Origin: Petrotoga sp. 9PW.55.5.1 | Lineage (GTDB): Bacteria > Thermotogota > Thermotogae > Petrotogales > Petrotogaceae | Direction of reading: 5' to 3' | Assembly: GCF_003265365.1 (NCBI RefSeq) | Contig: NZ_AUPM01000003.1 | Location: 1-64,000 of the forward strand | DNA length: 64,000 bases | Shown here: positions 51,042 through 52,981 of the stretch, piece by piece | How positions within the stretch are numbered: the stretch's first letter is position 1 | Layout: each line of letters starts with the position of its first letter | The notes under the pieces: generated by a model | What the model saw: the letters and a program-made list of their open reading frames with translations, nothing else | What the model was told of the DNA's origin: nothing | The model's database searches: none | Translations under genes and position numbers: made by a program

Positions 51042-51590
51042 ATGAGTTTGAAAATTGAAACTGGAAAGTTCAAAAACCAAAGTATAGAAATGGTAAACAA
51101 CTCTAGAACCAGATATACTCCTGCAAAAATAAGAAGGGCGTTAATGAGCATGTTCGATTTTTCTAATGCAAACATTCTAGAATTTTTTGCCGGAAGTGGA
51201 ATAGTAAGTTTCGAAGCTCTTAGCAATGGAGCAAGAAAAGCCATTTTGATAGATATCTCTTCAAAATCTGTTTCTTCTATTTTAAAGAACGCTAAAAAGT
51301 TATCTGTTTTAAAAAATGTAAAAGTTATAAATTCTGATTTTAGAAAATCAATTTCAAAAATTTCTCAAGAAAAATTTGACTATATTTTTGCTGATCCACC
51401 ATTTAATAACAATTATGTAGAAGAGATACTAAAATTCATTAGTCATAATGGAGACATTCTTGAAGATAATGGTTTTCTAATAATAGAAAAACATAAAAAT
51501 GAACAATATGGCTATTCCTCTAAAATTATGGAAGAACCAGAGATACGTAAATATGGAGATATAGAAATACTTATTTTTAGAAAAAAATAA
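51042..51590 (+). CDS. rsmD: RsmD-like 16S rRNA guanine-N2 methyltransferase
   Basis: 182 residues. KIETGKFKNQSIEMV and TRYTPAKIRRALMSMFD align with the RsmD start. The SAM site is NILEFFAGSGIVSFEALSNGARKAILID (about 40-67) and the catalytic motif FADPPFNNNYVEEIL (about 111-125, DPPF for the usual DPPY). It methylates G966 of 16S rRNA. ATG after GGAGGTAG. The stop codon touches the terminator of the convergent small RNA. Confidence 0.9.
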   Translation: MSLKIETGKFKNQSIEMVNNSRTRYTPAKIRRALMSMFDFSNANILEFFAGSGIVSFEALSNGARKAILIDISSKSVSSILKNAKKLSVLKNVKVINSDFRKSISKISQEKFDYIFADPPFNNNYVEEILKFISHNGDILEDNGFLIIEKHKNEQYGYSSKIMEEPEIRKYGDIEILIFRKK

Positions 51591-51613
51591 AAAAAGGGCC
51601 TTTATGGGGCCCT
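51589..51613 (-). terminator. intrinsic terminator of the small RNA
   Basis: On the minus strand AGGGCC (51613 to 51608), seven-base loop, GGCCCT (51600 to 51595), then TTTTTT-A-TTTTTTT. On the plus strand no T run follows, so it serves the minus strand. Confidence 0.85.
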
Positions 51614-51682
51614 AATTTGGAAATGAATTCTTCCGGGGACAGAACACTCCAGGAGGGAGGGTAACCTACAAAAGTGTCCTGT
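51589..51682 (-). ncRNA. probable stand-alone small RNA with C-rich, Shine-Dalgarno-complementary loop
   Basis: A GC-rich island in AT-rich DNA between two convergent genes. Predicted start A at 51682, seven bases after a -10. The first ten bases ACAGGACACU pair with AGUGUUCUGU (51648 to 51639); the single irregular pair is G-U only if the minus strand is transcribed. The 24-base loop holds ACCCUCCCUCCU, complementary to strong ribosome binding sites. A second, weak hairpin (GGAA...UUCC) follows, then terminator stem AGGGCC/GGCCCU and U6-A-U7. No open frame. It does not show SRP, 6S or tmRNA signatures. Length about 94 nt. Confidence 0.7.
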
Positions 51683-51688
51683 AAAGAT

Positions 51689-51716
51689 ATTATACACTAT
51701 GAAATTTTTTTCTCAA
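51689..51716 (-). promoter_or_regulatory. promoter of the small RNA
   Basis: On the minus strand TTGAGA (51716 to 51711), 16 bases, TATAAT (51694 to 51689), a near-consensus housekeeping promoter. It lies in the gap after the alkaline phosphatase stop. Confidence 0.8.
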
Positions 51717-51763: not shown

Positions 51764-52981
51764 TTATTCGAATTTAGAAGAAGAAATCTCAAAAATCGAA
51801 AAAATCTCGCTGTTTAATAATAACCAGCTTTCTGTTGGAATATTAGAAAAAAAAGGCGCATAATCGAGTGTATGGCCAAATGTTCCCCAATTTAATCCAC
51901 TAGCCTGGTTTTGAATATCGTAGAAAGCTTTGATTAATTCGGATTGGTAAGTAACGCTATCTTCTGAATTCTTGGTATTATAAAAAGGAGCTTCTAAATC
52001 AATTTTTAGGTTTAATGCCTTTTTAAATTCTTCATAATTATCGTAACGGTTAAAAATGTTGATCAGTTTCTCATAAGAAAAGTCATTATTGGGGATTTTA
52101 CTTGTTGAGATAAAGCCATCTCCTAAGCTCAAGCCACCTGTAGAATGATCAGCAGTGACTATTATTAAAGTATCTTCAGGTTGCTGATTTAAAAAATCTA
52201 ATGCAACTTTGGTTGCATCATCGAAATCCCATATTTCATAAATCATTGAGATAGTATCATGAGCATGGGAAGCGTGATCAATTCTACCACCTTCGATAAT
52301 AATAAAAAAAGGTTCATCTTCAAATTTTTTCAGGGCATATTCTAAAGTATCTTTTAAAGAAATTCTGTTAAAATCATCAGTTAAGAAAGGGAAATTCCCA
52401 TAATAGAGCATCACAATTTCCTTGTTTTTTGTGACTTGATCTTTTAGCTCTTCTGAGTAAGTATACCCAAATTGAGAGGCAATATTTTTGTCAAAATATG
52501 GTTTACCACCTCCAATGAAAAGGTCAAACCCGCTATTTAGTAGATCTTGTTTGATATTATCGTAATTTCTTCGGTTCACTGTAGAAGCATAAGCGCCTGC
52601 AGGAGTGGCATCAATAATAGTATTAGTAGTAATAACTCCAATTTGATATCCTAGACTTTTTAGATCATAAGTAATGGGGAATAATTTTTTCCCATTTCTG
52701 TCTATATTTATTCTGTCGTTATACGTTTTCTCTTTTGACAATATTGCTGTTATAGCTGCAGCTGAATCAGTAACTCCATTTAATGAAGAAGTGTCAACTA
52801 AAGAAAAATAAGGGATTTTAAACATATTTAGCTCTTCTTGATAAGAATATTGTTTATATAAATTTGCTAATTGCATATGAGGGATCCCCATTCCATCGGC
52901 TATGAAAAGAAATATATAGTCATAAGAATAAGTAAAAACTGTAAATAATAAAAAGATAAAAAAAATAAAAAAATTTTTCAT
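51764..52981 (-). CDS. alkaline phosphatase
   Basis: 405 residues. Signal peptide at 1-19. LFIADGMGIPHM (metal ligand Asp), the nucleophile serine in NGVTDSAAAITAIL (about 68-81), IIIEGGRIDHASHAHD and TADHSTGGLS near the end are all intact. A periplasmic or outside phosphomonoesterase that needs zinc/magnesium. ATG overlaps the stop of the HEXXH gene (ATGA). Last gene of the envelope operon. Regulation by phosphate is not evident; no clear Pho box was seen. Confidence 0.93.
   Translation of the reverse strand: MKNFFIFFIFLLFTVFTYSYDYIFLFIADGMGIPHMQLANLYKQYSYQEELNMFKIPYFSLVDTSSLNGVTDSAAAITAILSKEKTYNDRINIDRNGKKLFPITYDLKSLGYQIGVITTNTIIDATPAGAYASTVNRRNYDNIKQDLLNSGFDLFIGGGKPYFDKNIASQFGYTYSEELKDQVTKNKEIVMLYYGNFPFLTDDFNRISLKDTLEYALKKFEDEPFFIIIEGGRIDHASHAHDTISMIYEIWDFDDATKVALDFLNQQPEDTLIIVTADHSTGGLSLGDGFISTSKIPNNDFSYEKLINIFNRYDNYEEFKKALNLKIDLEAPFYNTKNSEDSVTYQSELIKAFYDIQNQASGLNWGTFGHTLDYAPFFSNIPTESWLLLNSEIFSIFEISSSKFE

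Follow-up and report, generated by a model that had tools for sequence, protein, structure and literature searches.

The minus strand of the window, the 64,000-nt stretch of Petrotoga sp. 9PW.55.5.1 DNA analysed here, carries a locus that is strongly supported as a stand-alone small RNA (sRNA) gene. This reading, already put forward in a preliminary description of the DNA, is borne out by the conservation of promoter, start point, stem, loop and terminator in 12 genomes from six genus groups. We consider it probable, at roughly 60%, that the RNA acts in trans and that its seed turns down arginine-lysine and glutamate synthesis by pairing with Shine-Dalgarno (SD) sequences. Transcription of the gene would start at its own sigma-70-type promoter and stop at an intrinsic terminator, two steps for which conservation provides strong support. 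A stem of 10–12 bp would display an invariant C-rich loop, 5′-GGUUACCCUCCCUCCU-3′, as the seed, which is predicted to pair with SD regions extending into GAGGGU. Homocitrate synthase, other genes of the arginine-lysine cluster and glutamate synthase (gltB) are the main predicted targets, and pairing would hinder binding of the 30S subunit or ribosome, so that amino-acid synthesis would be turned down under some condition. Hfq, encoded in all 21 genomes of the family, may bind the U-rich tail.

Read along the minus strand from 51716 to 51581, the locus consists of TTGAGA-16-TATAAT, six bases, ACAGGACACUUU...GGUUACCCUCCCUCCU...GGAGUGUUCUGUCCCCGGAA, a variable segment and AGGGCCCCAUAAAGGCCCU-U6-A-U7; every element of the originally reported gene outline, from the promoter through stem and loop to the GC stem and U6-A-U7, lies where it had been placed. 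All features of the RNA gene given below are on this strand. The −35 hexamer TTGAGA (51711–51716) and the −10 hexamer TATAAT (51689–51694), separated by a spacer of 16 nt, form the top one of seven promoter-like sites in the surrounding 1.3 kb with 11 of 12 matches, and the same 1.3 kb contains three terminator-like sites versus 0.7 expected. TATAAT is present in 12/12 genomes, and the −35 hexamer reads TTGAGA in genus groups g1, g3 and g7 and TTGAAA or TTGTAA in g5, g2 and g4. The purine (A or G) which opens the stem follows TATAAT after exactly 6 nt in all 12 genomes; this fixed gap places the predicted start point at the first base of the stem, A51682. Promoter spacing and terminator together suggest a conserved RNA of about 94 nt (51589–51682). 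Its terminator consists of the hairpin AGGGCCCCAUAAAGGCCCU (51595–51613) and a tail read from the sequence as U6-A-U7 (51581–51594). The terminator stems of the different genomes read GGGCC, GGUCC, GGCCCG, AGGCC or AGCCC, with hairpin and T-run constant, and this preservation of form despite sequence change argues for selection on termination. Inspection of the minus-strand sequence revealed no ATG within the small RNA and no plausible reading frame, in agreement with the initial proposal. Conservation across g1, g3 and g7 also covers the region of the −35/−10 spacer (51695–51716), which there has a AAAAATTTCATGATG-like sequence; in genomes G007 and G009 the spacer carries the palindrome GAAAAATTTTTC, possibly an operator.

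Folding of the minus-strand RNA yielded −32.5 kcal/mol (z = −3.7 versus dinucleotide shuffles, of which 1/200 was as good), and the plus-strand fold was weaker (z = −1.6; 14/200 shuffles as good). The long stem, supported by folding and pair counts, is formed by a 5′ arm ACAGGACACUUU (51671–51682) and a 3′ arm GGAGUGUUCUGU (51639–51650); it comprises 12 bp, has the start base (A or G) as +1 and is the minimum-energy structure still at 60–65 °C. The stem begins at the start point as first described; the last two of its 12 pairs are weak G-U pairs, and the loop, given there as 24 bases, is better stated as about 20–24 unpaired nucleotides. The G-U wobble that had been taken to favour the minus strand was confirmed in the window copy (G51678-U51643), and relatives show A-U/G-U and C-G/U-G exchanges at four further stem positions which remain paired only on this strand. 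One A-U to U-A change was found in the stem of G006. Two-sided covariation was seen at a single stem pair, no better than in column shuffles and too sparse to be significant alone.

The loop GGUUACCCUCCCUCCU (51651–51666), the complement of the SD-type sequence AGGAGGGAGGGUAACC, contains a 12-nt C-rich run, ACCCTCCCTCCT, at 51662–51651. It is near-invariant across the 12 genomes and differs only in G006 and G008; the consensus GGU(U/A)ACCCUCCCUC(C/U)U varies only by the U/A-type and C/U differences. The box CUGUCCCCGGAA is nearly or fully invariant as well, and the unpaired box CCCCGGAA (51631–51638), which may be another site for pairing or one for a protein, is identical in 12/12 genomes.

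A DNA search of 61 genomes identified the element in every one of the six genomes of g1, the genus group of the window, where the five other copies share 93–94% identity, and in g2, g3, g4, g5 and g7 of the same family with 79–92% identity over the aligned parts. The 53-nt core of the RNA was turned into a covariance model, designated R1, which detected a single copy in 12 of the 21 family genomes (66–82 bits, E 1e-14 to 3e-11), and these copies span the six genus groups g1, g2, g3, g4, g5 and g7. Within g6 (seven genomes) and g8 (two genomes) no copy was found, only noise even at E ≤ 10. Among 103 genomes of the phylum, R1 gave no real match beyond the Petrotogaceae; the runners-up of 20–23 bits, in f2, f3 and f5 genomes, look like stretches of protein genes and were rejected as signs of a wider spread. 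When 84,980 GTDB species were scanned for the pattern, one relative, titled Thermotogota bacterium, came up that falls within the family, along with four other matches that look like chance, being without comparable promoter, stem or terminator. A candidate second copy in the window genome, a perfect 12-mer on contig C58, turned out to be the target-like leader of homocitrate synthase and not a paralogue. Conservation in close relatives had been set beforehand as a test of the gene; stem and loop are kept, so the objection of missing conservation fails.

The strongest predicted target is the NifV-type homocitrate synthase (TIGR02660 above cut-off), encoded within the arginine-lysine cluster. 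Within the window genome, the full 12-mer AGGAGGGAGGGU is confined to two places, the strand opposite the RNA itself and the leader of this gene. Each of the six g1 genomes and G011 (g7) carries it at the SD of homocitrate synthase; the g3 site, AGGAGGGUGGGU, has one uncompensated mismatch. Pairing of the loop at this SD extends over 12–13 bp in seven genomes of two genera, with predicted duplex energies of −21 to −22 kcal/mol at 55 °C, compared to −17 to −18 kcal/mol for g3. We ranked 298 starts of genome G002, sampled as every fifth 20-kb stretch (one per 100 kb). Among these starts, that of homocitrate synthase has the strongest loop pairing (−21.5 kcal/mol at 55 °C; rank 1 of 298), and no other of the 25 combinations of stretch and strand was as enriched as its own (p = 0.0006). 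Enrichment of the cluster was obtained with p = 0.0001, and with p = 0.0004 once corrected for SD strength. The enriched strand carries argJ, argB, argD, carA, carB, argH, argC, homocitrate synthase and homoaconitase, argH and argC being named from sequence. When the test was initially run with a miscalled start for homocitrate synthase, the enrichment seen for the cluster was matched by 7 of 100 shuffled loops. The cluster was chosen for study since the motif pointed there; as the site motif served to find the target genes, the evidence consists in their ranks and not in their discovery.

The gltB leader provides the second main predicted site. It reads AGGAGGGAGGGUUAAAAUG in three and GUGAGGGAGGGUUAAAAUG in two g1 genomes and allows pairing of up to 12 bp. 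In G002, gltB ranked second by loop and first by the whole core, with a whole-core pairing of −30.8 versus −12.9 ± 3.2 for shuffled leaders. As a general target, glnA was left weak: its SD in g1 is GGGAGGG(A/G), and it ranked only 32nd by loop in G002.

In the leader of homocitrate synthase (L021:4881–4928, contig C58 of the window genome G000; homologues L122–L129), the SD, AAAGGAGGG(A/U)GGGU, is followed by a hairpin of 8–12 bp whose stem sequence varies by genome with the pairing kept, and the start codon lies about 35–45 nt after the SD, with no other SD near it. Apparently, the ribosome binding site is split by this hairpin. A tentative extension of the preferred reading, which we regard as possible though rather doubtful, is that the sRNA coordinates the flow of nitrogen into arginine, lysine and glutamate as a family-specific regulator, with ‘extended Shine-Dalgarno’ sites of 12–13 nt kept in the target leaders; pairing would then control the hairpin-split ribosome binding site of homocitrate synthase. 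The same leader design, AAAGGAGGGAGGGUGC with a downstream hairpin, precedes an alanine-racemase-like gene of G007 (C1:257690, minus strand; L093/L175). The glnA leader of G008 (L207) includes CGGGGACAG, the complement of CUGUCCCCG of the RNA, together with a terminator-like hairpin ACAAAGCCGAUGC...UAUCGGCUUUGU and the SD AGGAGGGA, and is possibly an attenuator or a target of the second box. Between argD and argG of the window genome (L021:960–1010), a 10-codon open frame, MPKNNRKGNA, is preceded by the SD GAGGGAGGGUUAAAAUG; the stretch preceding argG in G002 is without this frame.

Three genera that keep the RNA and its loop, g2, g4 and g5, have no homocitrate synthase, and gltB was detected in no more than five genomes, all of g1. 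Neither gene can therefore explain the invariance of the loop throughout the family, and other targets or another partner must exist in g2, g4 and g5. This absence of the best predicted target would be expected of a real sRNA that serves as a decoy or sponge, its invariant loop and CCCCGGAA box being bound by a protein or by the ribosome; SD pairing would then be incidental to the C-rich sequence. Such a role would also fit the two separate segments that are near letter-for-letter invariant across genera, beyond what a multi-target seed usually needs, and the complement of the 3′ box, which showed no excess in the sampled sequence. We nevertheless judge it unlikely, because the loop is complementary to extended SDs, amino-acid genes form a coherent set among the top-ranked starts, and repeated GGA loops of the CsrA-binding kind were not seen.

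The specificity of the predicted pairing has to be weighed against the SD core that the loop inevitably matches. At least 6 nt complementary to the loop were found at 31/105 starts of the window genome and 107/298 starts of G002, compared to only 3/105 and 9/298 at control positions inside genes. This complementarity at 30–36% of starts arises mainly from the AGGAGG core; since the loop holds this core, some match to starts is unavoidable, and permuted C-rich loops sometimes match equally many. Genome-wide, the 12-mer complement with up to two mismatches was not in excess of a reversed control (66 vs 71). One could accordingly picture a broad, unspecific SD blocker acting on hundreds of mRNAs through the common core, and both the third of starts with such matches and the correlation between loop and anti-SD energies (r = 0.45) agree with it. 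We hold this to be improbable, because at least 8 nt are reached at only 3/105 and 10/298 starts, whereas homocitrate synthase and gltB reach 12–13. The broad translational repressor of the preliminary description hence stays plausible in its SD pairing, which the target analysis partly supports by prediction, but its predicted range narrows to arginine-lysine and glutamate synthesis.

The RNA gene is preceded on the same strand by an alkaline phosphatase gene (51764–52981; PF00245, E 8e-46), its constant upstream neighbour in 12/12 RNA-bearing genomes. A close ortholog of this phosphatase is missing in all nine genomes without the RNA, a joint presence that could reflect shared descent rather than function. 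In G005 (C8, L069), the phosphatase gene beside the RNA seems to be split in two by a frame break, with the RNA intact. On the other side, rsmD (51042–51590, plus strand; TIGR00095 above cut-off) is the convergent neighbour in g1, g3 and g7. The gap between convergent genes, as originally described, therefore holds for the window but not for g2, g4 and g5 (G006, G008 and G009), where the downstream gene is co-directional and carries an O-antigen ligase domain, as seen in a Pfam run on the G009 gene. This variation of the downstream neighbour between genera indicates that the RNA is neither an rsmD antisense RNA nor a shared terminator; antisense control of rsmD was ruled out since rsmD does not adjoin the RNA in three genera. 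RapZ, also remarked upon as encoded in the window, plays no part.

The constant order of phosphatase gene and RNA would equally be expected if the element were not a gene in its own right but the 3′ end of the phosphatase mRNA, either a terminator element or a processed 3′ UTR. This explanation is very improbable: a conserved consensus promoter with the fixed 6-nt spacing lies between gene and RNA in each of the 12 genomes, and a terminator does not need an invariant loop. A chance arrangement or an unrecognised housekeeping RNA has next to no likelihood, since conservation across genomes refutes a chance fold and Rfam gave no useful match.

Although Hfq is encoded, almost no regulatory sRNAs have been described in Thermotogota (PMC9029176, PMC3636130). 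For Thermotoga maritima, 13 putative ncRNAs without definable structure were reported (PMC3636130), and a survey of 2022 counted one sRNA family for Thermotogae (PMC9029176). The earlier statement that no such RNA was described in this phylum is consistent with both reports and with the limitation of R1 to Petrotogaceae. If our reading is correct, sRNA control by SD pairing, known best from Firmicutes, extends to a deep-branching thermophile, whether by descent or independently. The concrete predicted targets allow a direct test in cultured species.

A comparison with the Rfam covariance models (4227 families) gave nothing at gathering score, and RsaE was absent even from the list of weak matches at E ≤ 10. 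A match to a known housekeeping RNA, named beforehand as an argument against the gene, was likewise not found, and a known RNA family was ruled out on this result. Judged by its sequence, the RNA is a genuine sRNA family unregistered in Rfam, a new family of a known kind. It shares with trans-acting SD-pairing sRNAs an own promoter and intrinsic terminator with no reading frame, as far as sequence can tell, and a conserved unpaired seed complementary to the ribosome binding sites of unlinked genes. Membership of the RsaE or csRNA family is not supported, given the missing Rfam match, the single copy, the position of the anti-SD within the first loop and the lack of CAU. RsaE/RoxS of Staphylococcus and Bacillus is a short sRNA whose C-rich regions pair with the SDs of metabolic mRNAs (PMC8216469). 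The Petrotogaceae RNA also has a C-rich unpaired region complementary to SDs, the loop ACCCUCCCUCCU, but this region is one C-rich run of 12 nt in a single loop, which the 10–12 bp stem at the opening of the RNA closes, and the RNA belongs to another phylum. FsrA and CsfG of Bacillus, C-rich sRNAs named together with RoxS (PMC8216469), have the C-rich regions and general design alone in common with it, with no sequence match. The csRNAs of streptococci are short structured sRNAs with the anti-SD, usually accompanied by a CAU anti-start, in an unpaired region between two stem-loops (PMC3091779). They occur as several per genome under the control of CiaR, in contrast to the one copy per genome found here, and the Petrotogaceae anti-SD lies inside the first stem-loop, the loop being without CAU. 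An anti-SD sequence exposed in an unpaired region is nonetheless common to both, and the likeness of the RNA to RsaE and the csRNAs is one of mechanism.
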